Part shown: positions 16,832 through 48,658 of the stretch, in pieces
Numbering within the stretch: the first letter of the stretch is position 1
How the letters are laid out: the number at the start of each line of letters is the position of its first letter
NCBI RefSeq assembly: GCF_008087345.1
Contig: NZ_VHIB01000001.1
Location: 930,001 to 994,000, forward strand
From: Nocardioides caldifontis
Lineage (GTDB): Bacteria > Actinomycetota > Actinomycetes > Propionibacteriales > Nocardioidaceae
Direction: 5' to 3'
DNA length: 64,000 nucleotides
Position numbers and translations under genes: made by a program
Notes under the pieces: generated by a model
What the model was told of the DNA's origin: nothing
Databases searched by the model: none
Seen by the model: the letters and a program-made list of their open reading frames with translations, nothing else

Positions 16832-16866
16832 ACATAACATCAAGGCGAACGAAGGAGAGCGGCACC

Positions 16867-27314: not shown

Positions 27315-28166
27315 ATGGGGATGTTGGACGGCAAGGTCGCGTTCGTGACCGGCGCCGCACGTGCGCAAGGACGCGCGCACGCGGTCGCCATGGCGCGCAA
27401 CGGTGCGGACGTGATCATCTGCGACATCGGTGAGGACGTCGACGGGCTGCGCTACAGCCTCGGCACGCTGGAGGAGCTCGAGGAGACCGCCGGGCTGGTC
27501 CGCGCCGAGGGGCGCCGGGTCGTCAGCCGGAAGGCCGACGTCCGCTCGCAGGCCGAGCTCGACGCGGTCGTCGCCGCGGGGGTCGAGGAGCTCGGCCGCG
27601 TCGATGTGCTGGTCGCGAACGCGGCGATCAACCAGCTGAAGCCGTTCTGGGAGATCACCGAGGCCGACTGGGAGGCGGTGGTCGGTACCAACCTCGCCGG
27701 CGTCTGGCGGTCGGCCAAGGCGGTGATGCCGCACCTGGTCCGCCAGCGGAGCGGGTCGATGGTGCTGATCTCCTCGGTCAACGGCCTCGAGCCGGCGAAC
27801 GGCTACGCGCACTACGGCGCCGCCAAGCACGGCGTCATCGGGCTGATGGGCAGCATCGCGCTCGAGGGCGCGCCCTACGGCATCCGTTGCAACGCGATCT
27901 GCCCGGGCTTCGTGAAGTCGGGGATGACGACGTTCCAGGACCAGCTCGACAAGTACGCCGGCCACCCGGGCGCGACCCTCGACGTCCTCGACGACGCCGG
28001 CCGCGGGTTCCACCCGTTCAACGGCCTGACCTACCTGGAGCCGGAGCACATCGCCGAGGCCGCGGTGTGGCTCTCCTCGACCGCCGCGATCGCGGTCAAC
28101 GGCGTGGCCATGCCGGTCGACGCCGGTCACCTGCTGGTCGCCGGGAAGGTGTGGCGCGACGCATGA
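27315..28166 (+). CDS. Mycofactocin-coupled SDR oxidoreductase (second copy)
   Basis: This 283-aa SDR has TGAARAQGRAHAVAMA (residues 12-27), the mycofactocin-type insertion (GLRYSLGTLEELEETAGLV, residues 44-62), and catalytic Ser153/154, Tyr167 and Lys171 (YGAAK). It should oxidise a secondary alcohol with non-exchangeable NAD. It is about as long as, but clearly different from, the copy at 8134, which suggests different substrates. ATG 27315 follows GGAGCGCGGAGAACC. The stop overlaps a CoA-transferase start (ATGA) in a four-gene operon. Confidence 0.91.
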   Translation: MGMLDGKVAFVTGAARAQGRAHAVAMARNGADVIICDIGEDVDGLRYSLGTLEELEETAGLVRAEGRRVVSRKADVRSQAELDAVVAAGVEELGRVDVLVANAAINQLKPFWEITEADWEAVVGTNLAGVWRSAKAVMPHLVRQRSGSMVLISSVNGLEPANGYAHYGAAKHGVIGLMGSIALEGAPYGIRCNAICPGFVKSGMTTFQDQLDKYAGHPGATLDVLDDAGRGFHPFNGLTYLEPEHIAEAAVWLSSTAAIAVNGVAMPVDAGHLLVAGKVWRDA

Positions 28167-29362
28167 GCGAGCATGGGACGGTGGCGTCCGACGCGCAGCC
28201 CCTGACCGGAGTCCGGGTCCTCGACCTGGGCATGAACATCGCCGGCCCCCAGGCGACGACGCTCCTCGCCGACCTCGGTGCCGACGTCGTCAAGGTGGAG
28301 TCGCCGCAGGGTGACACCAGCCGCGCCCTCGAGCCCAAGCTCGACGGGGTCAGCGCGATGGCGATGACGATGAACCGGAACAAGCGTTACCTCGGGCTCG
28401 ACCTGCGCCACCCCGACGCCGCGCCGGTCCGGGAGGCGTTGGTGCGTTGGGCGGACGTCGCGGTGCAGAACCTGCGTCCGGGCAAGGCCGAGCAGCTCGG
28501 CATCGGCGCCGACCAGTGCCACGACATCAATCCGCGGCTGGTGCACGTCAGCGTCGAGGCGTTCTACCCCTCCGAGGGCACCCGCCCCGGCTACGACCTG
28601 CTGGTTCAGGCGGAGACCGGGATGATGCACCTCACCGGTGACGCGGACGGTCCGCCGTCGCGGCTGCCGGGGAGCCTGCTCGACCACACCACCGGGCTGT
28701 TCGCGGCCTTCGGCATCGCGGCCGCGCTGCACGGCCCGCGCGACCGGCACCGGCTCACGGTGTCGATGAGCGACGTGGCGCAGAGCCTGCTCGGCGACCG
28801 TGTGGCCGCCTACCTGCTCAGCGGCGAGGCGCCCCAGCGGATGGGTTCGGCGATCTCGGTGACCACGCCGCTGCAGTCCTACCGGACGGGTGACGGGGAT
28901 CTCGCGATCGGCGCCGCGAGCGACGCTCTCTTCCGCCGGCTGGGGGAGGCCCTGGGGGTGGACCTGGCCGGCGACAGCCGGTTCGCCACCCAAGCCACCC
29001 GGCTGCAGCACCGGCACGAGCTCGACGACGCGATCGAGGAGGTGCTGGCGACCGCGTCCGCGGAAGTCTGGTACGAGCGGCTCCACGCGGCGGGGATCCC
29101 CACCGCGCGGGTCCGCGACCTGCCCGGGGCGGTGGAGCGCCACCGCGAGCTCAGCCGCACCGGGCTCGTGCCCGTCGAGGGGCTGCCGGGCGCGGAGCTG
29201 GTCGCGAACCCTCTGGGATCGGCCGTGGCGCCCCGCGTTCCCGGCCCGGTCGGTGCCGACTCGCGCTCCCTGCTCGTCGACCTCCTCGGTTTCGGCCAGG
29301 ACGACTACCTCAAGTGGGTCGAGTCCGGAGTCGTCGTACCGACACCGGAGGAGGGCGCATGA
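28163..29362 (+). CDS. CaiB/BaiF-type CoA-transferase (copy 3 of 4)
   Basis: This 399-aa family III CoA-transferase has VRVLDLGMNIAGPQATTLLA, DLGADVVKVESPQGDTSR, then NRNKRYLGLDLRHPDA and ADVAVQNLRPGKAEQLG. The SDGR-like second domain is present but the family's GQ/EG-rich turn is altered (HVSVEAFYPSEGTRPG). It would move CoA onto an acid formed from the alcohol oxidised by the preceding SDR. Both ends overlap neighbours by 4 bp. The next gene is another CaiB-fold member of racemase type, so activation and epimerisation are encoded side by side. Confidence 0.9.
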   Translation: MSEHGTVASDAQPLTGVRVLDLGMNIAGPQATTLLADLGADVVKVESPQGDTSRALEPKLDGVSAMAMTMNRNKRYLGLDLRHPDAAPVREALVRWADVAVQNLRPGKAEQLGIGADQCHDINPRLVHVSVEAFYPSEGTRPGYDLLVQAETGMMHLTGDADGPPSRLPGSLLDHTTGLFAAFGIAAALHGPRDRHRLTVSMSDVAQSLLGDRVAAYLLSGEAPQRMGSAISVTTPLQSYRTGDGDLAIGAASDALFRRLGEALGVDLAGDSRFATQATRLQHRHELDDAIEEVLATASAEVWYERLHAAGIPTARVRDLPGAVERHRELSRTGLVPVEGLPGAELVANPLGSAVAPRVPGPVGADSRSLLVDLLGFGQDDYLKWVESGVVVPTPEEGA

Positions 29363-30540
29363 CCGGACCGCTGCAAGGGCTCAAGGTCGTCGAGATGGCC
29401 GGGCAGGGCCCGGTGCCCTTCGCCGGGATGCAGCTCGCGGACCTCGGGGCCGAGGTGCTCCGCCTCGAGCGCCCGACCGGACGCACGGTCAAGCTCGCGC
29501 CGCCGCGCTTCGACGTGGTGGCACGAGGGCGCCGCTCGGTCGCCATCGACATGAAGGCCGAAGGAGCCGCCGAGCTGGTCCTGGGGCTGTTGGAGGAGGC
29601 GGACGTCTTCCTCGAGGGGTTCCGTCCAGGTGTCTGCGAACGGCTCGGGATCGGCCCGGAGCCGGCGCTGCGCGCGAACCCGCGGCTCGTCTACGCCCGG
29701 GTCACCGGGTGGGGGCAGGACGGCCCCCGGGCCCTCCAGGGCGGCCACGACATCAACTACATCGCCGTGACCGGTGCACTGGCGGCCATCGGGGAGAAGG
29801 GGCGCGCCCCTGTGCCACCGCTCAACCTCGTCGGCGACTTCGGGGGCGGCGGCATGTCCGCCCTGGTCGGCATCCTGGCCGCGCTGTACGGCGTCGAGCA
29901 CGGGCTGCCCGGCCAGGTCGTCGACGTGGCGATGGTCGAGGGGGTCAACACCCTGCTCGCCACCGCGCACGGCTACCAGGGCGCCGGCGTCCTGGTCGAC
30001 GAGCGCGAGAGCAACTTCGTCGACGGGGGTGCGCCCTACTACCGCGCGTACGAGTGCGCGGACGGCAACCACGTCGCGGTGGGTGCCGTGGAGCCCCAGT
30101 TCTTCCGGGCGCTGGTCACTACGCTCGGCGTCGACATCGACCCTGCCGGCCAGATGGACCGGTCGCGCTGGCCGGAGATGCGCAAGCAGCTCGCCGACGC
30201 CTTCGCCACCCGCTCGCGCGACGCGTGGGTCGAGCTCTTCGACGGGGTGGACGCCTGCGTCTCCCCCGTCCTGACGCTGGGCGAGGCGCACACCGACCCG
30301 CAGCTCGTCGCCCGCGAGGCGCTGCAGGTGGTCGACGGTGTGCCGCAGCCCGCGCCGTCGCCCCGGTTCTCTCGGACCCCTGCCGAGGTCGGTGCGCCGC
30401 CTCGCCGTCCCGGCTCCGACACGCGTACGGCGCTCGCCGACTGGGGTGTCGCGGCGGAGCGCGTCGAGGAGCTGCTGGGCGCGGGCGTGGTCCACGAGCC
30501 CGAGCCGCAGGGCGACGTGGGAGCGGCCGGGAGCCGATGA
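29359..30540 (+). CDS. Alpha-methylacyl-CoA racemase-like CaiB-family enzyme (copy 4 of 4)
   Basis: This 393-aa protein has the racemase signature GWGQDGPRALQGGHDINYIAVTG, which contains the His and Asp used for proton transfer in AMACR/MCR, and the GDFGGGGMSALVGILAA segment. AMACR interconverts (R)- and (S)-2-methylacyl-CoA, allowing ACADs to accept methyl-branched chains such as those of isoprenoids and sterols. It has normal length. Overlaps with the CoA-transferase upstream and the LLM gene downstream place it in the same operon as the mycofactocin SDR. It is one of the best hints that the substrate is methyl-branched. Confidence 0.9.
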   Translation: MTGPLQGLKVVEMAGQGPVPFAGMQLADLGAEVLRLERPTGRTVKLAPPRFDVVARGRRSVAIDMKAEGAAELVLGLLEEADVFLEGFRPGVCERLGIGPEPALRANPRLVYARVTGWGQDGPRALQGGHDINYIAVTGALAAIGEKGRAPVPPLNLVGDFGGGGMSALVGILAALYGVEHGLPGQVVDVAMVEGVNTLLATAHGYQGAGVLVDERESNFVDGGAPYYRAYECADGNHVAVGAVEPQFFRALVTTLGVDIDPAGQMDRSRWPEMRKQLADAFATRSRDAWVELFDGVDACVSPVLTLGEAHTDPQLVAREALQVVDGVPQPAPSPRFSRTPAEVGAPPRRPGSDTRTALADWGVAAERVEELLGAGVVHEPEPQGDVGAAGSR

Positions 30541-31499
30541 GCCCGCGGACCGGTCCGGGGGTCGCGCCGCTCGGCCACGGCTCGGTCTCGCTCGGCCTGT
30601 CGGCGGTGGGCGAGGTCGGCGCCGACGTGGTCCGGCGGCTGGTGGTCGACGCCCGCACGGCCGTCGAGACCGGCTTCGACGGCGTCACCCTCAGCGAGCA
30701 CCACCGCGGGTTCCCCGGCTACGTGCCCGACCCGCTCTCCGCCGCGTCGCTCCTGCTCGAGCGGCTGCCGACCGGCTGGGCCTGCGCGGCGCCGGCGATC
30801 CTCCCGCTGCGCCACCCCGTCCTGGCGGCCGAGCAGCTCGCATGGGCCGCGGCGGCCCACCCGGGCCGGGTGGCCGCGGCGTTCGTCCCGGGTTACCAGG
30901 AGGACGACTTCGCGCTCCTCGGCGAGGAGTTCACGGCCCGGCGCGCCCGCCACTGGGAGCGGCTCGAGCAGCTGGTGGGGCTGGTCGGGCCGGAGCACCG
31001 GCGCGGTGCGCTGGCGGGTGATCCCGCCGTGGTCGGGCTTCCCGGCGACGGGGTGCCCCTGCTGACCGGCGCTGCGGGGCCGGTCGCGGTCCGTCGGGCC
31101 GCGCGGCTCGGGGTCGGCGTGCTGCTGCCGTCCCTCCGGCCGCCGCAGGAGGTGCGGCAGCTCGCGGAGCGGTACGCGGACGAGGGCGGGCAGGCGCCGG
31201 TGGTGCTGATCCGCCGCCTCCACGTCGGCACCGGCAGCCCGGGCAGCGAGGTGAACCGCGCGCGGTGGCGTTCCCGCGCCGGCAGCGCTGACTGGCTCGA
31301 CCTCAGTGACGCGGCGGTCGCCACCGGGGAGCCGGGCCGGGTCGCGGAGCTCCTGGCCGAGGCGGTGAGGAGCTCGGGGTGCACGGCGCTCAACCTGCGG
31401 CTGGAGTGCTACGCAGACGCACCCGACCAGGTGTCCGCGCAGCTGGAGGCGCTCGGCGAGCACGTGCTGCCGGAGGTGCGCGCCGCGCTGGGTCGCTGA
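30537..31499 (+). CDS. LLM-class flavin/F420-dependent oxidoreductase
   Basis: This 320-aa luciferase-like TIM barrel has an N-terminal segment with VETGFDGVTLSEHHRGFPGYVPDPL and a central AHPGRVAAAFVPGYQEDDFALLG. It contains both long barrel helices but is near the lower length limit of the family. LLM proteins are FMN- or F420-dependent monooxygenases, reductases or dehydrogenases. It is the last gene of the operon that starts at 27315 (4-bp overlap with the racemase). Its stop is 16 bp from the convergent TetR gene. A Baeyer-Villiger-like or F420 reduction role is possible. Confidence 0.85.
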   Translation: MSPRTGPGVAPLGHGSVSLGLSAVGEVGADVVRRLVVDARTAVETGFDGVTLSEHHRGFPGYVPDPLSAASLLLERLPTGWACAAPAILPLRHPVLAAEQLAWAAAAHPGRVAAAFVPGYQEDDFALLGEEFTARRARHWERLEQLVGLVGPEHRRGALAGDPAVVGLPGDGVPLLTGAAGPVAVRRAARLGVGVLLPSLRPPQEVRQLAERYADEGGQAPVVLIRRLHVGTGSPGSEVNRARWRSRAGSADWLDLSDAAVATGEPGRVAELLAEAVRSSGCTALNLRLECYADAPDQVSAQLEALGEHVLPEVRAALGR

Positions 31500-31515: not shown

Positions 31516-32058
31516 TCAGCCGACGACCGCGTGCACCAGCCGGTCGAGGACCGGCCGCGCGTCGAACTCGGCGCCGCGAGCGAGGCGCTGGAGGAAGAGC
31601 CCCTCGAAGGCCGCGGAGATGGTGAGCATCGCCAGCTCCGGGTCGGAGGCGCCCATCCGCTCGACCGCCGGGATGACGATCTTCTCGGTGGTGCTCCGGG
31701 CCCGGGCGAGCGCGTTGCGGACCTCGGGGTTGTGGCTGGCCTCCATGACCAGCACGAGCCGGGCGCTGGTGAGCACCCGTCCCGGCCCCGTCATCTCCTC
31801 GAAGAGGTCGAAGAGGGTGCGGGCCAGCTCGTCCGGCGTCTCGGGGGAGTAGGCCCCCGCTACCAGCGGCACTTCGCGCTGCAGCATCCAGTCGACCGCA
31901 CCCTCGAGGAGCGCGGCCCGGGTCCGGAAGTAGTTCGACGCCGACCCCTTGGGAACCTCGGCCTTGGCGTCGACCCGCGCGTGTGTCAGGGCACGCAGCC
32001 CCTCCGTGCCGAGGAGCGTGATCGCTGCTTCGGAAACCTGCTCGCGGACTGACGCCAT
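31516..32058 (-). CDS. TetR-family transcriptional regulator
   Basis: This 180-aa regulator has an N-terminal HTH (residues ~5-45, with GLRALTHARVDAKAEVPKGSASNYFRT). This is followed by an all-helical ligand domain typical of TetR_C proteins. It is divergent from the ferredoxin gene. The intergenic palindrome CACTAT-ATCT-GTAGTG begins only 6 bp from its ATG and overlaps its TATAGT -10, so autorepression is likely. The -10 position predicts a leaderless mRNA. The same palindrome type occurs at 33590 and 44202, making it the best candidate regulator of the P450/UGSC and thioredoxin-reductase units. Confidence 0.88.
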   Translation of the reverse strand: MASVREQVSEAAITLLGTEGLRALTHARVDAKAEVPKGSASNYFRTRAALLEGAVDWMLQREVPLVAGAYSPETPDELARTLFDLFEEMTGPGRVLTSARLVLVMEASHNPEVRNALARARSTTEKIVIPAVERMGASDPELAMLTISAAFEGLFLQRLARGAEFDARPVLDRLVHAVVG

Positions 32059-32063
32059 GAGAA

Positions 32064-32079
32064 CACTATATCTGTAGTG
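32064..32079. promoter_or_regulatory. 6-4-6 palindromic operator, TetR/ferredoxin divergent promoter
   Basis: CACTATATCTGTAGTG has 6-bp arms with one mismatch around a 4-bp centre. It covers the minus-strand TATAGT -10 (32070-32065) of the TetR gene. It matches the form YACTAY-N4-RTAGTR seen at 33590-33605 and 44202-44217. Confidence 0.6.
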
Positions 32080-32140
32080 GACAGAGCGCGATCTCGACGG
32101 TACTTTGAGGCGAATGGTGTTCAGGGATCGAGGAGGGCGC

Positions 32141-32341
32141 ATGAGACTCCGGGTCGACCGCGACCGCTGCATCGGGTCGAGCAACTGCGTGGTGGTGATG
32201 CCTGACGTCTTCGACCAGGACGAAGCCGAAGGGCTCGTCCAGCTCCTCGACGACAGTGGCGCCGGCCACGACGAGGACGCTCTCCACGACGTCGCGTACG
32301 CCTGTCCGGCGCAGGCGATCGAGGTCGTCGAGGGTGGCTGA
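32141..32341 (+). CDS. [3Fe-4S]-type ferredoxin
   Basis: This 66-aa ferredoxin has cluster Cys10 and Cys16 (CIGSSNC) and Cys55 (YACPAQAI). With only three Cys in the C-x5-C...C pattern, a [3Fe-4S] cluster is expected, as in actinobacterial P450-linked ferredoxins. It would pass electrons from the adjacent FAD reductase to the P450 encoded at 35454. ATG 32141 directly follows GAGGAGGGCGC, while the longer in-frame start lacks a ribosome site. The stop lies within the reductase gene (8-bp overlap). Confidence 0.92.
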   Translation: MRLRVDRDRCIGSSNCVVVMPDVFDQDEAEGLVQLLDDSGAGHDEDALHDVAYACPAQAIEVVEGG

Positions 32342-33589: not shown

Positions 33590-33605
33590 TACTACGGTCG
33601 TAGTA
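33590..33605. promoter_or_regulatory. Perfect palindromic operator upstream of the UGSC-P450 operon
   Basis: TACTACGGTCGTAGTA is a perfect inverted repeat (7-bp arms, GT centre) in the 93-bp gap after the ferredoxin reductase. It lies 24 bp before the next start and has the same YACTAY-N4-RTAGTR form as the TetR operator at 32064. Confidence 0.65.
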
Positions 33606-33629
33606 ACCACCCTTTCAGTAGGAGCCCTC

Positions 33630-34163
33630 ATGCTCGTTCTCTCACCGCAACCGCACCACGGCGCTGCCGGGCGGCCCCAGTGCCCTCCCGTCGGCGCGCT
33701 CAAAGGCAAGACCATCGGTCTGCGCCGCGACAAGTTCTGGCTGTCCTGGGACTGGATCACCGACGAGTGGGCCCGGCTGCTCGAGGCCGACGGCGCCGAG
33801 ACGCTGATCTGGCGCGCACCCGTCGGCAAGGGCGATCAAGCGATGGCGGAGGGTGGCGAGGAGTACGCGAAGTTCCTCTCGTCGATCGATGTCGCCATCA
33901 GCGGGCTGGGCAACTGCGGCTCCTGCACCCTGTGGGCCATCCACGACGCCGTCGGGGCCCTCGACTCCGGGCTGCCGACGGTCGCGGTGACCACCGAGCA
34001 CTTCGAGTCGCTCGGCCGGACCCTCGCCGCCCAGCGCGGGCACGACAGCCTCCGCGTCAAGCTCATGCCCTACCCGCTCGAGGGGCGCCCCGAGGACGAG
34101 GTCCGCCAGATCGCCCGAGACAACTACGAGAACCTTCTGACCGTGATGGGAGCAAGCCGATGA
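33630..34163 (+). CDS. UGSC-family protein, Cys form
   Basis: This 177-aa protein contains GLGNCGSCTLWAIHDAVGAL (residues 92-111). It matches the UGSC family, in which the first position is selenocysteine in many members and Cys96 here, with Cys99 as partner (CGSC). GLPTVAVTTEHFESLGR and an EDEVRQIARDNYENLL helix follow. The family is considered thiol-redox-like, but its reaction is unknown. The first residues (about 1-22) look poorly conserved. ATG 33630 follows TAGGAGCCCTC. Its stop overlaps the next gene (ATGA), beginning a six-gene operon that also contains a cytochrome P450. Confidence 0.8.
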   Translation: MLVLSPQPHHGAAGRPQCPPVGALKGKTIGLRRDKFWLSWDWITDEWARLLEADGAETLIWRAPVGKGDQAMAEGGEEYAKFLSSIDVAISGLGNCGSCTLWAIHDAVGALDSGLPTVAVTTEHFESLGRTLAAQRGHDSLRVKLMPYPLEGRPEDEVRQIARDNYENLLTVMGASR

Positions 34164-35218
34164 CCGCGGTGCTGACCAGTGAGCGGGTGGACGTGCCCGA
34201 GGACATCTCCGACTTCTCCGTGGACGCGCTCGCCCGCGGCTGGTCCGACGGGTTACCTGTCGTGCCGCCGACCGAGGAGCGGGTCGCCGAGCACGTGGCC
34301 GCCAGCGGCCTGGCGCCCGACTTCGTGCTCGGCACCCTCTACCCTTCCGGCGTGGCCTGCACGGTGGAGCACCTCGCCGTCAACGCCGTGATGGCCGGGG
34401 CGCCGGCGGCCTCGATGAAGCTGCTCGCCGCCTCGGTCAACGCGCTGGCCGACCCGGCGTTCGACCTCGCGGGGCTCAACGCCACCACCGCGTCGGTCGT
34501 CCCCGCGCTGGTGGTCAGCGGCCCGGTGCGCGACGAGCTCGGGCTGCCCTACAAGCACGGTGTGCTGGGCGGGGCGGCCGGGCCCGCGCCGGCGATCGGT
34601 CGAGCGCTGCGGCTGCTCATGCGCAACGTCGCCGGCCAGGTCGTGGGCGTCACCTCCGAGTCGGTCTTCGGCCAGCCCGGCCGCGTCACCGGCATCGTCG
34701 CCTCGGAGTGGGTCGAGGAGTCGCCCTGGCCGTCCATCGGCGAGCGGCGCGGCATCGAGGGCGACTCGGTCACGGTGTACGGCGTGCTCGGCTCGGCCAA
34801 CATCCTCAACAGCTACGGCAGCAGCGGCTCGGAGATCCTCCAGGTCGTCGGGAAGTCCCTCTGCTTCATGGGCAACAACAACATGGACCACTCGGCGCAG
34901 TTCGCCCACCAGGTCGTGATGCTGAACCCGGTCTGGGCGAAGATCGTCGCCAAGGAGTTCCCGCGGATCGAGGACGTCCAGGAGGTCCTCTACGACACCG
35001 CAGCCGTCCACATCAGCGAGTTCCCCGAGTCGCTGCACGGCCCGCTCCACGAGGCTGCCGACGTCCGCGACGACGGCCGGGTCTACCTGATGGACTCGCC
35101 TGCCGACGTCTCGGTCCTGGTCGCCGGCGGCAAGGGTTCGCTGCACGGCACGATGCTGCCCGGCATGTCGAACATGCTCCCGGTGACCCGCTCGCTCGAC
35201 CCGAAGGAGTGGGCGTGA
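34160..35218 (+). CDS. Unrecognised 352-aa conserved protein, partner of the UGSC protein
   Basis: I cannot assign this protein a function. Visible features are an N-terminal WSDGLPVVPPTEERVAEHV, a Gly/Ala-rich middle (GVLGGAAGPAPAIGRALRLL), and then SEWVEESPWPSIGERRG. Further on come NSYGSSGSEILQVVGKSLC, a MGNNNMDHSAQFAHQV segment and a C-terminal SVLVAGGKGSLHGTMLPG. No signal peptide or transmembrane helix is evident, so it should be cytosolic. It overlaps the UGSC gene and the following small gene by 4 bp each, implying stoichiometric synthesis. From memory, homologues with the DGLPVVPPTEERV motif accompany UGSC proteins elsewhere. Confidence 0.7.
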   Translation: MTAVLTSERVDVPEDISDFSVDALARGWSDGLPVVPPTEERVAEHVAASGLAPDFVLGTLYPSGVACTVEHLAVNAVMAGAPAASMKLLAASVNALADPAFDLAGLNATTASVVPALVVSGPVRDELGLPYKHGVLGGAAGPAPAIGRALRLLMRNVAGQVVGVTSESVFGQPGRVTGIVASEWVEESPWPSIGERRGIEGDSVTVYGVLGSANILNSYGSSGSEILQVVGKSLCFMGNNNMDHSAQFAHQVVMLNPVWAKIVAKEFPRIEDVQEVLYDTAAVHISEFPESLHGPLHEAADVRDDGRVYLMDSPADVSVLVAGGKGSLHGTMLPGMSNMLPVTRSLDPKEWA

Positions 35219-35457
35219 GCGTCGCGGCGGGCATCGAGCAGGCCCAGGCGCTCCTCGCTGCGGACGGCAGCCGGCTCGTCGTGCTCGAGGAGGCGGCGGA
35301 CCGCGTCCACTTCCGGCTCGACCTGGAGAGCGCGGAGTGCGCCGACTGCGTGCTGCCGGCGGCCCACCTGACGACCGTGGTCGCCGGCGTCATGCGCGAG
35401 GCCACCGGGAACCCCCAGTTCGCCGTGCAGATCGACGACCCGAGGACGGAGCCGTGA
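35215..35457 (+). CDS. NifU-like C-terminal-domain mini-protein
   Basis: This 80-aa protein has the outline of a NifU C-terminal scaffold: a LLAADGSRLVVLEE strand pair, then FRLDLESAECADCVLPAAHL with Cys42 and Cys45, followed by a helix VVAGVMREATG. In NifU/Nfu the CxxC binds or transfers an Fe-S cluster. The match is by pattern only and the surrounding residues differ (CADC-VLP), so another thiol or metal function is possible. The GTG overlaps the 352-aa gene stop, and its own stop overlaps the P450 start. Confidence 0.55.
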   Translation: MSVAAGIEQAQALLAADGSRLVVLEEAADRVHFRLDLESAECADCVLPAAHLTTVVAGVMREATGNPQFAVQIDDPRTEP

Positions 35458-36713
35458 CCACGCTCGAGGACGGCCTTCTCCGGTTCTTCCGCCCCGACGC
35501 CGAGCTGATGGCGGACCCCTTCCCGCTCTACGCACAGCTGCGGGAGGCCGGCCCGGCGTACCGCTTCAAGGACCGGGTGCTGGTCAGCCACTTCGAGCCG
35601 GCTCGCGAGCTGCTCGTGGCGCCGACGACGCGGCAGGGGCTGTCGGTGCGCGGGTCGCGCTACCGAGCGGTCATCGACGGGCTCGGCGAGGACGACGTCA
35701 CGAAGCTCGTGGAGCTCTTCGGCTTCTACGAGAAGCGCGTGAGCGGCGTCGACGGCGACAAGCACAAGCGGCTCCGCCGCCTGGCCCAGCGGGCGTTCAC
35801 GCATCGTGTCGTCAGCCAGATGGAGCAGCGGATCCAGGAGATCACCGACCAGCTGCTCGCCTCGGTCGCGGACCGCGGCACGTTCGAGTTCGTGGAGGAG
35901 TTCGCCTACCACCTGCCGCTGATCGTCATCTGCGACATGTTCGACATCCCGTCCGAGGACCGGGGGCAGCTCCGGGACTGGGCGAGCGACCTGGGGCGCT
36001 TCGTCGGGGCGGACTGGTCGGACGTGAAGACGCTCCGCGAGACGCACAGGTCCGTCTTCGCGATGCGCGAGTACCTCACCGGTGTCTTCGCTGGCAAGCG
36101 CGGCGGCGAGACCACGGAGCTGATGGCCGCCCTGCTCAACGCCGAGGGGGACGAGGAGGACCACTTCACCGAGGACGAGCTGGTCGCGGTGATCACGCAG
36201 TTCGTCTTCGCCGGCCACGAGACGACCACCAACCTGATGGGGAACTCGATGGTCACGCTGCTGCGCGACCACCGCGAGCAGTGGGAGCTGCTGCGCGAAC
36301 AGCCCGAGCTGGTCCCCGGTGCGGTCGAGGAGCTGCTCCGCTACTCGGGGACGACGCAGTACGTCGACAAGCTGGTCTCGGAGGACTGCGAGATAGGAGG
36401 CGTCGAGGTCAAGGCGTGGGACACCGTCGTGGTCGCCGTCGCCGCGGCGAACCGCGACGAGACGGCCTTCCCGGACGGCGAGCGGTTCGACGTGACCCGC
36501 GACGGGAAGAGCCACCTCTCCTTCGGCTTCGGCCCGCACCACTGCCTCGGGGCGGCGCTGGCCCGCATCGAGATGGCCACGCTGCTGCGGACGCTCACCC
36601 GGCGGTTCCCGGAGATGGGCCTCGTCGAGCCCGAGCACGTCGTGTACGGCGCCAACAGCATGCTGCGCGGGCCGGAGCGGCTGCCGGTGCGGCTCGGGAG
36701 GGAGCACTCGTGA
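35454..36713 (+). CDS. Cytochrome P450
   Basis: This 419-aa bacterial P450 has the I-helix oxygen-activation motif AGHETT (residues 253-258), the K-helix ExxR (E293-R296), and the haem loop FGFGPHHCLGAALA with thiolate Cys364. It hydroxylates a substrate using electrons from a ferredoxin, which with its reductase is coded 2-3 kb upstream under a similar operator. It is embedded by 4-bp overlaps between the NifU-like gene and an SDR that could oxidise the new hydroxyl. The combination with UGSC-type genes is unusual. Confidence 0.94.
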   Translation: MTTLEDGLLRFFRPDAELMADPFPLYAQLREAGPAYRFKDRVLVSHFEPARELLVAPTTRQGLSVRGSRYRAVIDGLGEDDVTKLVELFGFYEKRVSGVDGDKHKRLRRLAQRAFTHRVVSQMEQRIQEITDQLLASVADRGTFEFVEEFAYHLPLIVICDMFDIPSEDRGQLRDWASDLGRFVGADWSDVKTLRETHRSVFAMREYLTGVFAGKRGGETTELMAALLNAEGDEEDHFTEDELVAVITQFVFAGHETTTNLMGNSMVTLLRDHREQWELLREQPELVPGAVEELLRYSGTTQYVDKLVSEDCEIGGVEVKAWDTVVVAVAAANRDETAFPDGERFDVTRDGKSHLSFGFGPHHCLGAALARIEMATLLRTLTRRFPEMGLVEPEHVVYGANSMLRGPERLPVRLGREHS

Positions 36714-37483
36714 CGACGCTCGACAGCCGGGTCGCTCTGGTGACCGGGGCCGCATCCGGGGTCGGCCAGGCGGTCGCCAGGCGCTACCTGCGCGCAGGTG
36801 CCTCCGTGGTGGCGGTCGACCGCAACCCCGACGGGCTCGCGCGCCTCGACGACTCCGGCGACCGGCTGGCCACTGCCGTGGCCGACGTGGGCGTCCGGTC
36901 CGAGCTGGAGGCGGCCGTGGGGACGGCCGTGTCCCGGTTCGGCGGTCTCGACGTCGTCGCCGCCGTTGCCGGCATCTCGCGGACCGGGTCCGTGCTCGAC
37001 ATGTCGGACGAGGACCGCGACGCCATCCTCGGGGTCAACCTCGTCGGTGTGTGGAACACCGTCAAGGCGGCCCTCCCGGCGCTGCTCGACCGTGGTGCCG
37101 GCGGCCGGATCCTCGCCTGCGGCTCGGTCGAGTCCGTCCTCGGGGGCGTGGGGCTGGCGGCGTACGTGGCCTCCAAGCACGGGCTCGTCGGCCTGATCAA
37201 GTCGGTCGCGCTCGAGTGCGCGCCGCACGGGATCACCGCCAACGTGGTCTCCCCAGCCGGCGTCGACACCGAGATGCTGCGGACCGTGGTGCCGCCCGAG
37301 GCGATCCAGCACATCGCCGACACCACCCCGATCGCACGGTTGAGCTCGCCCGACGAGATCGCCGCGTTCTTCGAGTTCCTCGCCGGGCCGGACGCCGGCT
37401 ACATCACCGGCAGCAACATCGTGGTCGACGGGGGAGTCGTCCTCCTCAACAGCCACACGACCGGCCAGTCGTGGGCGTCGTGA
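36710..37483 (+). CDS. SDR-family oxidoreductase
   Basis: This 257-aa classical SDR has TGAASGVGQAVARRYL, a VAAVAGISRTG variant of the NNAG motif, a YVASKHGLVGLIKSV active-site helix and a terminal GSNIVVDGGVVL. It is NAD(P)-dependent and probably dehydrogenates the alcohol produced by the preceding P450. Its GTG overlaps the P450 stop and its own stop overlaps the LLM gene. It lacks the mycofactocin insertion seen in the SDRs at 8134 and 27315. Confidence 0.9.
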   Translation: MTTLDSRVALVTGAASGVGQAVARRYLRAGASVVAVDRNPDGLARLDDSGDRLATAVADVGVRSELEAAVGTAVSRFGGLDVVAAVAGISRTGSVLDMSDEDRDAILGVNLVGVWNTVKAALPALLDRGAGGRILACGSVESVLGGVGLAAYVASKHGLVGLIKSVALECAPHGITANVVSPAGVDTEMLRTVVPPEAIQHIADTTPIARLSSPDEIAAFFEFLAGPDAGYITGSNIVVDGGVVLLNSHTTGQSWAS

Positions 37484-38367
37484 ACGCACCCGTGCACATC
37501 GGCGTCAAGATCCCGAACTGGGGGCCGCTCGCGGGCCCGGAGGCGGTCGCCGCGACGGCAGCCGCCGCCGAGGAGCGCGGGTTCGGCTCGGTGTGGGTCT
37601 CGGACCACGTCGCCATGCCGCCCGGAGCCGACGCCTCCAGCCACGGGCTGGAGCCGCGCACACCGTTCCTCGACCCGTTCACGACGCTCTCGTACGTCGC
37701 GGCCCGAACCACCCGCGTCCAGCTCGGGACCGGCGTCTACGTGCTGCCACTGCGCCCTCCGCTCCTCACGGCGAAGCAGGCGGCGAGCGTCGACGTCCTG
37801 AGCGGAGGACGTCTGCTGCTGGGGGTGGGGGTCGGGTGGCTGCGCGACGAGTTCGAGCTGCTCGGAGCCTCGTGGGACGACCGCGGGCGCCGGACCGACG
37901 CTGCCCTCGAGCTGGTGCGCGGAAGTTGGGACGGGACGGCTGCAGGGGTCGAGATGTGGCCGCGACCAGCGGGGCAGGTGCCCGTGCTGATCGGTGGCGA
38001 GTCGCCGGCCGCGTTGGCACGGACGGTCCGGCTGGGGGACGGCTGGTACGGCAGCGGGATCACCCCGCAGCGGTTCGCGGAGGTGGTCACGGCCCTCCGC
38101 GCACGGATGTGGAGGGCCGGGGCCGAGGGGGAGCTGCTCATGGGGACAAGGGCGGCCGGCGTCGCGCCCGAGGACGCCCGCGCCACCGTCGAGGCGTTCG
38201 GCCGCGCCGGCGCCACCTTCGTGGTCCTCGACGCGCCCGTCCCGGACGTCGCGGGCGCCGTCGCATGGGTGCACCGGACCGCTGACGAGCTCCGCCTCGA
38301 GCCCGGGACGAGCACTCCGCTGGCCAGTGCGCGGCCCTGGGCGGTTGCCGAACCCGCTTGTGGGTGA
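37480..38367 (+). CDS. LLM-class F420-dependent oxidoreductase
   Basis: This 295-aa luciferase-like protein has an N-terminal IGVKIPNWGPL strand, FGSVWVSDHVAMPP, RTTRVQLGTGVYVLPLRPPLLTAKQ and GGRLLLGVGVGWLRDEFELLG. These are the standard blocks of the F420-dependent LLM subgroup. It may reduce or oxygenate the ketone from the SDR. It is the sixth and last gene of the operon beginning with the UGSC protein, and it is unrelated in detail to the LLM protein at 30537. Confidence 0.9.
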   Translation: MNAPVHIGVKIPNWGPLAGPEAVAATAAAAEERGFGSVWVSDHVAMPPGADASSHGLEPRTPFLDPFTTLSYVAARTTRVQLGTGVYVLPLRPPLLTAKQAASVDVLSGGRLLLGVGVGWLRDEFELLGASWDDRGRRTDAALELVRGSWDGTAAGVEMWPRPAGQVPVLIGGESPAALARTVRLGDGWYGSGITPQRFAEVVTALRARMWRAGAEGELLMGTRAAGVAPEDARATVEAFGRAGATFVVLDAPVPDVAGAVAWVHRTADELRLEPGTSTPLASARPWAVAEPACG

Positions 38368-43272: not shown

Positions 43273-43770
43273 TCAGCCTCGGGGTCGGCCCGGGGCGCCC
43301 CCGCCGGCGGCCTGGAGCGCGGCACGGGTCCACCAGCGGTCGGTGACGTCCGCGCCGTGCGACCAGTCGTAGACGCACTGACGGTGCTGGATGCGCCACT
43401 CGCCGTTGCGCCGGGTGAACCGGTCGAGGTAGCGGCCGGCGTTGACGTAGTCCCGCGACGTGCCGTTCTCGTGGGCCGTCAGCACGGCGATGAAGTAGGA
43501 CTCGCAGGTGGCGTCGTCGCCGTCGAGCCGGATGTCGGTGTTGCCGATCAGGTGGTAGTTGACCTCGATCGGGGAGTTGCCGACGAAGACCGGCGAGGCG
43601 GTCGCGAGGTACTCGCGGATCGGCCCGTCGAACCCTTCGTGGTCCTCGGTCGCGTCCTCGTGGTAGCAGGAGAGCGCGCTCTCGAGATCGCGCGCGTCCG
43701 TGGCCCGGGCGCGGCGGTAGAGCACCTGCCGGATCTCACGCTCGTCGAGCAGCATCTGCAACGGGTCCAT
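43273..43770 (-). CDS. SnoaL/NTF2-like protein
   Basis: This 165-aa protein has EIRQVLYRRARATDARDLESALSCYHEDA, the N-terminal helix and first strand of the SnoaL_4 group, and a closing AGRYLDRFTRRNGEWRIQHR strand pair. Family members include dehydratases, isomerases and ring-hydroxylating-dioxygenase small-subunit relatives. It lies 3 bp from an EthD-like gene on the same strand, and both are divergent from the thioredoxin-reductase-like gene under the palindrome at 44202. Confidence 0.85.
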   Translation of the reverse strand: MDPLQMLLDEREIRQVLYRRARATDARDLESALSCYHEDATEDHEGFDGPIREYLATASPVFVGNSPIEVNYHLIGNTDIRLDGDDATCESYFIAVLTAHENGTSRDYVNAGRYLDRFTRRNGEWRIQHRQCVYDWSHGADVTDRWWTRAALQAAGGGAPGRPRG

Positions 43771-43773
43771 GGG

Positions 43774-44166
43774 TCACCTTTCGTGGGTGGTGGCGGTCCG
43801 AGAGGGGTCGCGGGCTGGATCCACCCGCGGGCCGATCGCGGAGAAGAACCCGACCAGCGCGTCAGCCGCCATCGCACGCGGCGGCGATATGAGTGGTGCA
43901 CGTCCGGCCGCAGCGGCCTCGGCCCGGTCCTCCTGCTGGAGCCGGAGCTGCTCACGGGCGAGCTCCACGTCGTCGACCTCGTAGAGGGCGAGGTACTTGT
44001 ACGGCGGGGCCGTGTCGTCCGGGCCGGCACGGACGAACCGTTGGGCCGACCTCACGCCGTCGAGGACGTCGACCATCTCGTGGACGTGGACGGCGTCGTA
44101 CCACTCGTTGAACTCGTCCTCGCGGCCCGGAAGCGCGTTGCTCAGGACGACCAGCAGGTGGCTCAT
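43774..44166 (-). CDS. EthD-like dimeric alpha/beta-barrel protein
   Basis: This 130-aa protein begins [30 protein letters not shown], the ferredoxin-like fold seen in EthD/DUF4286-type dimeric alpha-beta barrel proteins. [10 protein letters not shown] is the third strand. Such proteins assist P450 or ring-oxidation pathways (EthD in ether degradation) with unknown chemistry. It is the first gene of a two-gene unit with the SnoaL-like protein. Its start lies 36 bp from the 44202-44217 palindrome. The C-terminal 25 residues look disordered. Confidence 0.75.
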
Positions 44167-44201: not shown

Positions 44202-44217
44202 TACTATGCTTATAGTA
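44202..44217. promoter_or_regulatory. Perfect palindromic operator, EthD-like/thioredoxin-reductase divergent promoter
   Basis: TACTATGCTTATAGTA has perfect 6-bp arms around GCTT. It overlaps a TATAGT -10 (44211-44216) for the plus-strand gene, with TTCCTA 17 bp upstream. Arm sequence and spacing match the sites at 32064 and 33590. Confidence 0.65.
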
Positions 44218-44243: not shown

Positions 44244-45173
44244 GTGGACAGAGGGCAGCGGGACGTGATCATCATCGGGTCGGGACCGGCGGGGTTGACC
44301 GCCGCCACCTACACGGCCCGGGCGGGGCTCGACCCGCTTCTCTTCGAGGGCTCGGTGACCGCCGGCGGCGCCCTCATGAACACCACCGAGGTGGAGAACT
44401 TCCCCGGCTTCGAGGAAGGGATCCAGGGGCCCGACCTGATGACCCGGATGCGCACCCAGGCCGAGCGGTTCGGGGCGGCGATCGTGACCGACGACGTCAC
44501 TGCGGTGCGGCTGGAGGACGAGGTCAAGGTCGTCGTCGACGGGGCGGGGGTGGAGCACGCCGCCCGCGCCTTGGTCCTGGCGATGGGCTCGGCCTACCGC
44601 GAGCTGGGTCTCCCGCACGAGAAGCGGCTCTCCGGTCGCGGCGTCTCGTGGTGCGCCACCTGCGACGGCTTCTTCTTCCGAGGACGGGACGTCGCGGTCG
44701 TCGGCGGAGGCGACTCGGCGGTCGAGGAGGCGCTCTTCCTCACCCGGTTCGCCAGCTCCGTCACGTTGGTCCACCGTCGCGATGAACTTCGGGCCTCGCG
44801 GATCATGGCGGACCGGGCAGGAGCCGAGGAGCGGATCACCTTCGCCTGGAACAGCGAGGTGACGGAGCTCCACGGCGACGAGGTGCTGTCGGGGGTGACG
44901 CTCCGCGACACCGTGACCGGAGCCGTGCGGGACCTCGCGGTGGCCGGGCTGTTCGTCGCGGTCGGCCACGAGCCGCGCAACGAGCTGGTCAAGGGGCTCG
45001 TGGAGGTGGACGCCGACGGCTACGTGCTCACCGAGGGCAAGAGCTCGCGGACCAGCGTCCCGGGGGTCTTCGCGTGCGGCGACCTGGTGGACCGCACCTA
45101 CCGCCAGGCCGTGACGGCGGCGGGTTCAGGGTGTGCCGCGGCCATCGACGCGGAGCGCTACCTCGCCCACTGA
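44244..45173 (+). CDS. trxB: Thioredoxin-reductase-like FAD/NAD(P)H oxidoreductase
   Basis: This 309-aa protein has the thioredoxin-reductase layout: [20 protein letters not shown] for FAD, the redox-active pair in [10 protein letters not shown] (Cys137/Cys140), [15 protein letters not shown] for NADPH, and the terminal [27 protein letters not shown]. It reduces a disulfide partner, classically thioredoxin. No thioredoxin gene is nearby, so it is probably not the housekeeping copy. Its promoter carries the same palindrome as the UGSC-P450 operon, making the CGSC protein a possible physiological partner. GTG 44244 follows CCGGAGGAGAAG. Confidence 0.85.
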
Positions 45174-45954: not shown

Positions 45955-46230
45955 GGTGGTGGGTCCTCATCGTCGTGGGCGACTGGTGCGTCGTGGCGCG
46001 GGTCGGGCACGGTTCGAGTCTAGGGCCACGGACGCCGCCCATGCGGTTCATGCGGATGGTAACCCCGCGCGTCTCATCGGCCGTCAGCCGAACCTCCATG
46101 CCCCCGGTCCTTCCGGACTATTGACGTGACGCGCGCTACATCTGTTCTAATCGTTCGCATCATTGTCAGCGACTGACTCCGCCGCCGTGGGCTCCTCCCG
46201 GCAGGCGTCGACGCCCGAGTGAGGAAGTGC
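45955..46230. promoter_or_regulatory. Divergent control region, FadR-type regulator / HyuB-gamma operon
   Basis: This 276-bp gap holds no convincing ORF. It contains a plus-strand promoter candidate TTGACG (46121-46126) with TCTAAT (46146-46151, 19-bp spacer), the element TTCGCATCATTGTCA (46154-46168) shared with sites at 4478 and 12949, and a direct repeat CATGCGG-TT-CATGCGG (46040-46055). No classical FadR-type inverted repeat could be fixed. Confidence 0.45.
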
Positions 46231-48615
46231 ATGACCCTCCAAGCAACCTCCGCGACCGGAACGAGCACTCCGGACGGCATCATCCGCAACCCGCAGGTGG
46301 ACTTCTCAGCCATCGAGCCGGGCGCCTGGGACGGGCGCGACCTGCCGTACCTGCCTCGGATCGACCTGGACGTCGACCCGTCGTTGCAGCTCAACACCGA
46401 GTTCGACCGCGACGTCGACCCGATCACCTACCAGGTCCTCCGGTCGCGGTTCTGGAACCTCAACCTCGACCACTCGGACACGATCAAGCGGGTGTCGGGC
46501 TCGGCCAACATCGTCTACATGGACGACTTCAACACGTCCCTGCTCACCGAGAACGGCGACACGATCGTCTGCGGCCCGTCGGTGCAGTACTTCACCGGGC
46601 ACGGCGACATGGCAGTCAAGTGGACGCTGGAGAACCGCAGCGCCAACCCGGGGATCGAGGACAACGACGTCTTCCTGCAGAACGACCCGTACATCGGCAC
46701 CGAGCACCAGATGGACACCATGATGTACATGCCGGTCTTCTGGGAGGGCGGGCTGTTCTGCTGGATCCTCAGCAACACCCACATGGGTGACATCGGCGGC
46801 ACCGACCCCGGCAGCTTCTGCATCGGCGCCCAGGACATCTACAGCGAGAGCACGCCGGTACCGCCGATCAAGATCGCGAGCCGCGGCGTCCTCCGCGACG
46901 ACGTCGTCGAGATGTTCACCCGCAAGAGCCGCATGCCCGCGCAGATCGCGCTGCAGATCCGCAGCCAGCTCGCCGGCCTTCGGCTGACCCGCGAGCGGAT
47001 GCACCAGATGCTCGAGGAGCACGGCGCCGCGGTGGTGAAGGGCGCCATGCGCCGCATGATCAAGGACTGCTCGGAGACGGTCGGCAAGCGGCTGCTGCAG
47101 ATCCCCGACGGCAAGTGGACCGAGGTCCTGTACGTCGGAAGTGCGGGCCCCGACGACCGCGACGTGCACCGTCTGGTCACGACCGTCGAGAAGCGCGGGG
47201 ACCGGCTGATCTTCGACAACGAGGGGAGCGACCCGCAGTTCTACGCGGCGAACGCGCCCTTCTCCGCCTGGCGTTCCAGCCTGCTCAGCGCGGGTGCGAC
47301 GTTGTTCGGCTACGACCAGTACAACTGCCCGGCCGGCGTCGCCGACCACATGGAGTTCCGCCCGGTGGCCGGCACCATGACCTGCGCCCGCTATCCCGCC
47401 GCGGTCTCCACGCTCACCTCGTCGATCGTGACCGTCTACCTGGCGAGCCAGGTGCTCAGCAAGATGGCGCTCGCGGGACCCGAGCACATCCGCAAGGCGG
47501 CCAACGCCAGCGGCGGCGTCTCGCTGCCCGGTTGGTGGGTCGCCTCAGGGCTGGACCGCAAGGGCAACTTCGTCGCCGAGCTCACCGCGGACAGTCTGCT
47601 GGGCTCCATCGGCGCCTTCCCCACGCGCGACGGTGTGGACACCGGTGGCGCGTGGTGGTGGCCGAACTCCAACGCCGGCAACCTCGAGGAGTGGGAGTCG
47701 TCGCTCCCGATCCTCTACCTGTTCCGCCGCGAGCAGATCGACAGCGGGGGTGCCGGCAAGTGGCGCGGCGGAAACGGCCTCGAGCTGGCGGTCGTGCCGC
47801 ACAAGACCGACGGCCTGGTCACCCAGATCGTCTCCTCCGATCCCGCCATCAACACCTCGCCGGGCCTGGCCGGCGGGCTGCCGGGCCACCCGGGCAACTT
47901 CCTCGCCCGGCTCTCGACCGGCGTGAAGGACCACCTGTCGCAAGGGACCATGCCTGCCAACCGAACCGAGCTCGAGGAGAGCTTCGGGTCGCTCGACCGG
48001 CTGTCGCCCAAGTCGGTGACCAACCTGACCCCGGATGACGTCTTCTGCGTCGAGTACAGCGGCGGCGGCGGCTTCGGCGACCCGTTGTTCCGGGACCCGT
48101 CCCTGGTCGTCGAGGACGTCGAGAACGGCAGTCTCACGGTCGACCACGCGCGCCAGCACCACGGCGTCGTGATCGACGGGACGGAGCTCGACGGGGAGGC
48201 CACCGCCTCCCTGCGCCGTGAGCTGCTGACGGTGCGGCTCAGCAGCGCCGCCGCGCCCCGCCAGCCCGCCGAGGGCACGGTCGACCCGGGCTCGGTTCGG
48301 CTCGTGTCCGACGTGCTCGGCATCGCGTCCACCAGCGACGGCCCGAGCTGGGCGTGCGGAGAGTGCGGTCAGCGGCTCGGCTCCGTCGACCAGAACTACA
48401 AGGAGGGCGCGGCGGTCGTCGACACCAACCCCTTCGAGGTCGACCCGATCGCGTACCCCGACCCCTCGGACTTCTGCGACGTCCCCTTCGTGCTCCGGCA
48501 GACGCTGTGCCCCTCGTGCGGCGTGTGCCTGAACGCCGAGTGCTGCCGGGCGGACGACGACCTGCTCCACGACATCAGCCTCTCCGAGTCCGGCCTGTCC
48601 ATGCTCGGGCACTGA
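46231..48615 (+). CDS. Hydantoinase B-type subunit fused to an acetone-carboxylase-gamma-like zinc domain
   Basis: This 794-aa protein has two parts. Residues ~50-620 are a HyuB/AcxB-like domain (DPITYQVLRSRFWNLN, NDPYIGTEHQMDTMMYMPVF, GGAGKWRGGNGLE, YSGGGGFGDPL). Residues ~700-794 contain Cys709/Cys712 and Cys760/Cys763 in paired CxxC knuckles (WACGECG; LCPSCG), like the separate gamma subunit of acetone or acetophenone carboxylases. Such complexes carboxylate ketones with ATP. ATG 46231 is chosen over GTG 46219, because GAGGAAG lies directly between them. It leads a seven-gene operon with HyuA, an importer and a flavoprotein. Confidence 0.85.
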   Translation: MTLQATSATGTSTPDGIIRNPQVDFSAIEPGAWDGRDLPYLPRIDLDVDPSLQLNTEFDRDVDPITYQVLRSRFWNLNLDHSDTIKRVSGSANIVYMDDFNTSLLTENGDTIVCGPSVQYFTGHGDMAVKWTLENRSANPGIEDNDVFLQNDPYIGTEHQMDTMMYMPVFWEGGLFCWILSNTHMGDIGGTDPGSFCIGAQDIYSESTPVPPIKIASRGVLRDDVVEMFTRKSRMPAQIALQIRSQLAGLRLTRERMHQMLEEHGAAVVKGAMRRMIKDCSETVGKRLLQIPDGKWTEVLYVGSAGPDDRDVHRLVTTVEKRGDRLIFDNEGSDPQFYAANAPFSAWRSSLLSAGATLFGYDQYNCPAGVADHMEFRPVAGTMTCARYPAAVSTLTSSIVTVYLASQVLSKMALAGPEHIRKAANASGGVSLPGWWVASGLDRKGNFVAELTADSLLGSIGAFPTRDGVDTGGAWWWPNSNAGNLEEWESSLPILYLFRREQIDSGGAGKWRGGNGLELAVVPHKTDGLVTQIVSSDPAINTSPGLAGGLPGHPGNFLARLSTGVKDHLSQGTMPANRTELEESFGSLDRLSPKSVTNLTPDDVFCVEYSGGGGFGDPLFRDPSLVVEDVENGSLTVDHARQHHGVVIDGTELDGEATASLRRELLTVRLSSAAAPRQPAEGTVDPGSVRLVSDVLGIASTSDGPSWACGECGQRLGSVDQNYKEGAAVVDTNPFEVDPIAYPDPSDFCDVPFVLRQTLCPSCGVCLNAECCRADDDLLHDISLSESGLSMLGH

Positions 48616-48658
48616 GCGACTCCCTCCCCGACCGACCACGATCCATCAAGGGACACAC

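Follow-up and report, generated by a model that had tools for sequence, protein, structure and literature searches.

A UGSC-family protein and two partner proteins encoded ahead of a cytochrome P450 in Nocardioides caldifontis: a possible cysteine-based cousin of glycine reductase

A six-gene operon in Nocardioides caldifontis

The genome of Nocardioides caldifontis (NCBI RefSeq assembly GCF_008087345.1) carries on contig NZ_VHIB01000001.1 an operon in which genes for a UGSC-family protein (g1) and two less familiar proteins (g2 and g3) precede genes for a cytochrome P450, a short-chain dehydrogenase (SDR) and an LLM-class oxidoreductase. We examined this operon within a stretch of 64,000 nucleotides (positions 930,001 to 994,000 of the contig), which is referred to below as the window and whose numbering is used throughout. 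As explained below, the first three genes are a separate and older module, which looks like a distant cysteine (Cys)-based cousin of glycine reductase, widespread and as yet uncharacterised, and the neighbouring P450 is a local arrangement that does not belong to the conserved enzyme module.

The operon consists of six co-directional genes between 33630 and 38367, and each of the five junctions between them is a 4-bp overlap, ATGA or GTGA; both the number of genes and the exact overlaps had been noted in an initial annotation of this DNA and are borne out by the coordinates:

33630-34163, + strand: g1, UGSC protein in its Cys form (CGSC; Cys96 and Cys99), 177 aa; Pfam PF24696, 108.2 bits (gathering cut-off 25)
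34160-35218, + strand: g2, partner protein of an unnamed family, 352 aa; AlphaFold2 model
35215-35457, + strand: g3, Nfu-like protein with a C-x-x-C-x-x-P motif, 80 aa; putative third component (hhalign, PDB match, fusions)
35454-36713, + strand: g4, cytochrome P450, 419 aa; PF00067, 99.5 bits
36710-37483, + strand: g5, SDR, 257 aa; PF13561, 178.8 bits
37480-38367, + strand: g6, F420-dependent LLM-class oxidoreductase, 295 aa; TIGR03619, 203.6 bits (cut-off 166.9)

The same overlap joins eight other adjacent gene pairs in a chosen list of window genes (the genes of the window and of some other loci were called with a simple custom scoring of codon positions). Overlaps of this kind are thus routine in the window and are no evidence of a complex between the products, and we rejected them as a sign of one.

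Distribution and natural fusions of the module

Relatives of g2 were detected in 24/296 genomes of a phylum sample and 15/294 genomes of a family sample (the N. caldifontis genome being in both), in 22 plasmid records, haloarchaeal ones included, and, for the GTDB collection, in no fewer than 577 stretches, the best 80 of which were analysed (loci L064-L143). The locus and match counts given in this report ignore kinship, some genomes contribute several loci and some loci are short. A UGSC gene lies within 600 bp, on the same strand, of 139 of the 157 g2 matches, upstream in 90 cases and downstream in 49 (a g2 split into two matches is counted twice in this tally), and the neighbourhood survey that the initial annotation had called for therefore supports a conserved pairing of UGSC and g2 across loci. 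When neighbours were counted with single-sequence phmmer seeds at E<=1e-5, a procedure by which distant members can be missed, the 125 g2 loci yielded UGSC at 116, a g3-like domain at 13, a thioredoxin reductase match at 11 and thioredoxin at 3, and P450, SDR and LLM matches at 6, 41 and 18, respectively. The g3-like domains are concentrated around g2, with a density of 17.2 per Mb within 3 kb as opposed to 1.7 further away, and all 12 of the near ones are on the g2 strand.

Natural fusions connect the three genes in several combinations. At 25 of the 80 GTDB loci, 35 copies in all have UGSC and g2 in a single reading frame that no stop codon interrupts (these were called by frame, with start sites not individually checked, and the copy at 5251 of L086 has a UGSC match that lacks the motif). 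In Bacillus dakarensis (L103), UGSC, g2 and g3 form one frame whose single internal UGA is at the selenocysteine (Sec) position, and UGSC and g3 are in one frame in an Arthrobacter plasmid (L043) and in a member of the window's own family (L190), both with the gene order trxB-trxA-g2-UGSC-g3. An alphaproteobacterial metagenome-assembled genome (MAG; L065) has UGSC, g2 and g3 as neighbours in the order seen in the window. The UGSC-g2, UGSC-g3 and UGSC-g2-g3 fusions argue well for a joint function of the three products, although g3 occurs in a minority of loci. On this comparative evidence the proteins encoded by g1, g2 and g3 most likely form one complex, and the proposal of such a complex in the initial annotation is supported. 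Several copies of UGSC or UGSC-g2, up to three, occur within single loci (L095, L120, L128, L139 and L143), which suggests substrate-specific duplicates.

The same survey speaks differently on the strict coupling to a P450 that had also been claimed. Across the 125 loci, one P450 lies within 3 kb of g2, on the opposite strand, versus six further away (1.4 versus 5.2 per Mb), and when the limit is set at 5 kb there are four near, one of them on the g2 strand (L196, 2.7 kb away), versus three far. No P450 match was found in the examined stretches of the closest relatives, L064 with the pair and L065 with the trio. The SDR and LLM genes are mildly denser within 3 kb of g2 than further out (34.3 versus 26.8 and 14.3 versus 8.7 per Mb, respectively). 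On these counts we reject a conserved coupling to P450 genes and regard the P450 of the window as a local neighbour.

The UGSC protein and its relation to GrdB

The g1 protein scores 68.1 bits with NF041046, the equivalog model of the UGSC family, under its cut-off of 125. Its motif is SGLGNCGSC, of which C96, G97 and C99 are invariant, with TGA read as Cys, across an alignment of 70 UGSC sequences (the window protein and 69 of 83 UGSC copies). In most relatives the first motif position is specified by UGA, as in 89/92 UGSC domains of the 80 GTDB loci, 19/24 of the phylum sample, 3/9 of the plasmids and 1/15 of the window's own family; three domains in these counts were unread or misread (L081, L030 and L060), and L060 has CGSC by a separate reading. 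The N. caldifontis genome has a tRNA-Sec gene (C3:366152-366242, 78.3 bits; ARAGORN finds the same one) and a SelB-like match (C3:340889-341923) which at 230 bits is just below its cut-off of 242, so that Sec is likely to be used elsewhere in the genome; its only UGSC protein carries Cys.

Profile comparisons point to the selenoprotein B of glycine reductase, GrdB. When the 70 UGSC sequences were compared with eight GrdB sequences in hhalign, the profiles aligned over 64 columns with a probability of 93.3 (E 2.8e-7, as calculated for a single-pair comparison), in such a way that CGSC is placed on the Sec motif U-G-T-C of GrdB. A second set, composed of short GrdB-C-like proteins, gave a probability of 91.9, and control comparisons gave 5.5, 22.4 (over 14 columns, with Nfu) and 0.2. 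Among the 30 of 35 UGSC-g2 fusions that were aligned, the glycine reductase selenoprotein B model TIGR01917 is listed for 14 at E<=10 (best 7.5e-5), and the PrdB model for 6 (best 2.1e-4). The two TIGR01917 matches recovered when ten fusions were rescanned cover the Sec-bearing part of GrdB (profile positions 327-406 and 333-396). The Pfam GRDB matches that were fetched stop just before Sec, from which we conclude that this model covers little of the region in question. From these alignments, UGSC has a distant relation to the Sec region of GrdB and is probably a GrdB-like catalytic domain that operates with a different partner. No match to any Grd model was found among the 24 window genes scanned, the remaining window genes lying outside the scan, and searches of the PDB with UGSC returned chance-level matches only.

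In an AlphaFold2 model of the triple fusion, strands and helices alternate in five units along the UGSC part, which is a flavodoxin-like pattern. This order does not favour a thioredoxin fold for UGSC.

Loci L173-L178, L183 and L184, from genomes that also hold UGSC, encode short GrdB-C-like proteins in which an in-frame UGA belongs to a U-P-x-C motif; these are possibly another group of uncharacterised selenoproteins.

The partner proteins g2 and g3

Neither g2 nor g3 has a Pfam or NCBIfam match at E<=0.001, or a Pfam match at E<=10, and g2 has no relative among the solved structures of the PDB by sequence. The AlphaFold2 model of the window g2, built on an alignment of 90 sequences (the window and 89 of 92 listed copies; L105, L127 and L136 were left out and L116 had been dropped earlier), has a pLDDT of 94.2 and a pTM of 0.93. 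Foldseek found nothing in the PDB at E<=0.001 with it. The 16 best matches are all cyclic amide hydrolases (best E 6e-3, probability 0.44), with TM scores of 0.17-0.20 and root-mean-square deviations of 12 or more; this likeness is too weak for a claim of fold, and a cyclic amide hydrolase assignment was set aside. The predicted structure of g2 is thus a high-confidence one without a clear known fold. A region of the protein with DGLP, R148 and E183 is conserved.

In a FastTree analysis of 134 g2 sequences, the window copy groups with L064 (a gammaproteobacterial MAG), then with L065 and then with L104, with a support of 99 at each step (trees were unrooted and alignments were not trimmed by hand). 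Copies from the window's own family are absent from the 15 nearest rows of the tree, which suggests horizontal transfer. L064 has 47% identity to the window g2 and shares with it the replacement of two conserved cysteines, C81 and C180, so that the window g2 represents a divergent branch in which the persistence of the same losses at this distance suggests selection.

The description of g3 as NifU-like in the initial annotation holds as a remote profile relation, since g3 aligns with Nfu over 61 columns through its CxxC (hhalign probability 91.2) and matches the NifU-like PDB entry 2z51 at E 8.1e-6. As a statement of Pfam family membership it fails, since PF01106 (Nfu/NifU) has no match to g3 at E<=10, nor any match elsewhere in the N. 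caldifontis genome. All 13 g3 sequences compared have a proline three residues past the second Cys. The triple-fusion model as a whole has a pLDDT of 84.9 and a pTM of 0.81; the values per block in its g3 part are about 47-72. Its one Foldseek match at E<=0.001 is to a beta-N-hexosaminidase (6.4e-4; matched part unspecified), the rest being a spread of alpha/beta folds.

Thioredoxin reductase and a putative regulon

Thioredoxin reductase is the redox enzyme whose genes are enriched around g2. Nine of them lie within 3 kb, all on the g2 strand, at a density of 12.9 per Mb compared with 1.7 further away, an enrichment that makes a reductase the better reading of the trio, in preference to a helper in the oxidation. 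The window has such a gene downstream of the operon, and the two share a palindrome with one another and, in related form, with the region of the TetR and ferredoxin genes:

44244-45173, + strand: thioredoxin reductase, proposed electron source; TIGR01292, 391.5 bits (cut-off 343.45)
33590-33605: TACTACGGTCGTAGTA, a perfect palindrome 24 nt upstream of the start codon of UGSC; putative operator of this operon
44202-44217: TACTATGCTTATAGTA, a palindrome 26 nt upstream of the start of the thioredoxin reductase gene; putative operator
32064-32079: related palindrome CACTATATCTGTAGTG between the TetR and ferredoxin genes, 2 mismatches to the shared form
16817-16832: TATTATGCGAATAATA, a related palindrome that differs from the shared form by 2 mismatches, ahead of the acyl-CoA dehydrogenase gene at 16867
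31516-32058, - strand: TetR-family regulator; TetR_C_31, 67.4 bits on the longer frame 31516-32184, the shorter start being that of the gene calls
32105-32341, + strand: ferredoxin, probable redox partner of the P450; PF13370, 42.8 bits
32256-33536, + strand: ferredoxin reductase, start codon uncertain and probably near 32334; PF07992, 181.5 bits

The genome has one other thioredoxin reductase above the TIGR01292 cut-off, so that the copy at 44244 can be a dedicated one; no thioredoxin gene was found beside it. The region delimited in the initial annotation began at 33590, which is the first base of the palindrome TACTACGGTCGTAGTA. In a search of the window with the arms of this palindrome, allowing up to 3 mismatches, one further site was found, ahead of the thioredoxin reductase gene. 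The form that the two sites share, TACTAYNNNNRTAGTA, a pattern drawn from these very sites, has only two exact occurrences in the 4.8-Mb genome (33590 and 44202) and none for its reversed control. With 2 mismatches allowed it matches two more sites in the window, where 0.07 are expected (a fifth match overlaps the first), and when the regions of the three other sites were shuffled, 2 mismatches were reached in 0.3 to 0.5% of cases. By the gene calls all four palindromes are intergenic, the one beside the TetR gene only if that gene starts at 32058 and not at 32184. The occurrence of related palindromes at the promoters of the operon, of the ferredoxin and TetR genes and of the thioredoxin reductase gene points to one regulon, in which the TetR protein, as a candidate binder of the palindromes, may control the operon, the ferredoxin and the thioredoxin reductase together.

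Proposed reaction and its alternatives

In glycine reductase, electrons from a thioredoxin dithiol are used and the reaction passes through a Se-C bond (PMC10298544). For fluoroacetate, cleavage of the C-F bond by a GrdB-type pair has been proposed on the basis of expression data and comparative genomics (PMC10838667). By analogy, we suggest that g1-g2-g3 encode one reductase complex. Electrons would pass from NADPH to the thioredoxin reductase (44244-45173), on to a thioredoxin (assumed to be a housekeeping one) and from there to the Cys96-x-x-Cys99 pair of UGSC. The first Cys, which is Sec in most relatives, would attack the leaving-group-bearing carbon of a substrate held by g2, as in GrdB. 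Resolution of the intermediate by the second Cys would leave a disulfide for thioredoxin to restore, and the net conversion would be of C-X to C-H. The CxxC of g3 might relay electrons or dock thioredoxin, and the P450, the SDR and the F420-dependent LLM enzyme would constitute an oxidation module added to the operon in this genome. We place the probability that the trio is such a Cys-based, thioredoxin-driven, GrdB-like reductase under common control with the P450 module at roughly 55%. A wider proposition is that UGSC-g2-g3 constitutes a superfamily, so far undescribed, of soluble reductases driven by thioredoxin, which would cleave C-X bonds as GrdB does but with a new partner fold, and would occur in bacteria and haloarchaea, mostly as selenoproteins; the version in the window would use Cys only and be linked to a P450 pathway through a single regulator. 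This proposition is more tentative, and we rate it somewhat short of even odds.

Several observations weigh against the proposed reductase. The g1 protein itself matches neither GrdB model (PF07355 or TIGR01917) in the Pfam and NCBIfam scans, and GRDB is not among the 25 shown of 36 Pfam families listed at E<=10 for the 70 UGSC sequences. When ten fusions were rescanned at E<=1, TIGR01917 was found in two, at 7.5e-5 and, weakly, at 0.054, and in the single-pair hhalign comparisons the Nfu control also reached E 9.4e-4. A relation of g2 to GrdB or GrdE was rejected at profile probabilities of 0.7 and 0.1, so that the likeness to glycine reductase is confined to UGSC and its 64 columns. Of the 90 g2 sequences, 87 have Cys at position 81 and 82 have it at position 180; the window g2 has neither, and other conserved residues are missing from it as well. 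Thioredoxin reductase is present at only 11/125 loci, with some weak matches among them (24 bits in L126), and the copy in the window is 5.9 kb beyond the operon. For the palindromes, the arm search had an expectation of 0.27 matches and 3/100 shuffles reached two, the shared form comes from the sites that it describes, and when the genome was searched with the first site, allowing 2 mismatches, only that site was returned, the reversed control giving 1 and 2.

Four other explanations were considered. The trio might be a thiol-disulfide or peroxide reductase without C-X cleavage that protects, for example, the P450 pathway; the Sec/Cys-x-x-Cys motif and the thioredoxin reductase neighbours would fit such an activity, and the 2008 survey that described the UGSC family worked on the assumption of a redox role and a thioredoxin-like fold (PMC2398784). 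We regard it as unlikely, given that the strand-helix order of the UGSC model is flavodoxin-like, that the profiles relate UGSC to GrdB, an enzyme of C-X bonds, and that class III CoA-transferases near g2 are a weak hint of acid breakdown. The initial annotation favoured an accessory complex dedicated to the P450 oxidation through activation or sulfur chemistry. The single operon with its 4-bp overlaps, the related palindrome in the TetR/ferredoxin region and the P450 on the g2 strand of L196 are consistent with this, but the overlaps are routine, P450 genes are not enriched near g2 relatives at 3 kb or at 5 kb, and the examined stretches of L064 and L065 are free of P450 matches. Since the genes usually occur without a P450, the circumstance that the initial annotation had itself named as telling against its view, we consider such an accessory role improbable. 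Its guess at redox or dehalogenation-type chemistry remains plausible, and it is the part played in P450 oxidation that gives way to a reductase.

The remaining two explanations concern g2 and the state of the window copy. If g2 were a hydrolase of the cyclic amide fold, like barbiturase or cyanuric acid hydrolase with their threefold Toblerone architecture and Ser-Lys sites, and UGSC and g3 were accessory subunits, its 16 top Foldseek matches and the hydantoinase-type genes at 46219-50764 of the window would find an explanation; those matches are too weak, however, and hydrolysis requires neither Sec/Cys nor a thioredoxin reductase, which makes this account a shade less credible even than the accessory complex. 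Least probable of all, in our estimate, is a decayed or repurposed binding module in place of a working enzyme. It would account for the replacement of C81 and C180, in L064 as well, and for the Cys form of UGSC, but the frames are intact, the operon is tight, CGSC is kept, the g2 model is of high confidence and the losses recur in so distant a sequence as that of L064. The Cys-based reductase is the reading that we favour.

Comparison with known systems

The Global Ocean Sampling survey of 2008 had UGSC as one of its major selenoprotein families and also reported the UGSC domain fused to a conserved unknown domain as UGSC/Unknown_1 (PMC2398784), and a review of 2026 places UGSC in a group of selenoproteins with largely uncharacterised functions (PMC13188914). 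In the open-licence literature we found no assigned reaction for UGSC and no module composed of UGSC, g2, g3 and thioredoxin reductase. The g1 protein is a member of PF24696 with the family motif and differs by its Cys in place of Sec and by its score below the NF041046 cut-off. The unknown domain of UGSC/Unknown_1 may well be g2; in the window the two are separate genes and are accompanied by a third, and the neighbourhood, the relation to GrdB and the link to thioredoxin reductase are not given in the sections of the survey that were consulted (PMC2398784).

A (U/C)-G-x-C-type motif in the family profiles is common to UGSC and to GrdB/GrdE and PrdB/PrdA, and thioredoxin reductase may be a partner in both cases, as gene clustering and the shared palindrome hint. 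At 177 aa, g1 is about as long as the Sec region of GrdB by itself, and g2 is unrelated to GrdE and is found in a P450 setting. The proposal for the fluoroacetate reductase FarBE shows that a GrdB-type protein may act on a carbon-halogen bond, and FarE was reported to lack conserved cysteines of its family as the window g2 does, a parallel and not a homology (PMC10838667). The g3 protein aligns with the Nfu/NifU C-terminal domain through CxxC and differs in having no Pfam match and an invariant proline after that motif. What would be new is a GrdB-like reductase with a new partner family, UGSC and its fusion being already known. The connection to this partner family, to an Nfu-like part, to GrdB and to thioredoxin reductase provides UGSC with a testable class of reaction, and expression and assay should be less difficult with a Cys version that has its own thioredoxin reductase, apparently under a common operator, than with the selenoproteins.

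Neighbouring genes

The operon is preceded by the TetR, ferredoxin and ferredoxin reductase genes listed above and followed by a gene for a periplasmic binding protein and then by genes apparently for a branched-chain-amino-acid-type transporter, as judged from their translations. Just upstream (28163-31499) are two class III CoA-transferase genes and an LLM gene joined by 4-bp overlaps, and at L104 two CoA-transferases and an LLM match adjoin UGSC-g2 on the opposite strand. With the window CoA-transferases as seeds, class III CoA-transferases were found within 5 kb of g2 at 18/125 loci, at a density of 19.7 per Mb near g2 and 13.5 far from it, which weakly hints at the breakdown of organic acids. 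Two loci of the window's family, L192 (7462-15096) and L194 (7375-15081), have UGSC-g2 followed on one strand by matches to thioredoxin reductase, CoA-transferase, acyl-CoA dehydrogenase, enoyl-CoA hydratase and SDR.

A SnoaL-like gene and a 130-aa gene without a family (43273-44166) are divergent from the thioredoxin reductase gene across the palindrome at 44202. The genes at 46219-50764 are a hydantoinase B/A-type pair, of which the B gene has an acetone carboxylase gamma-like tail (PF08882, 28.8 bits).

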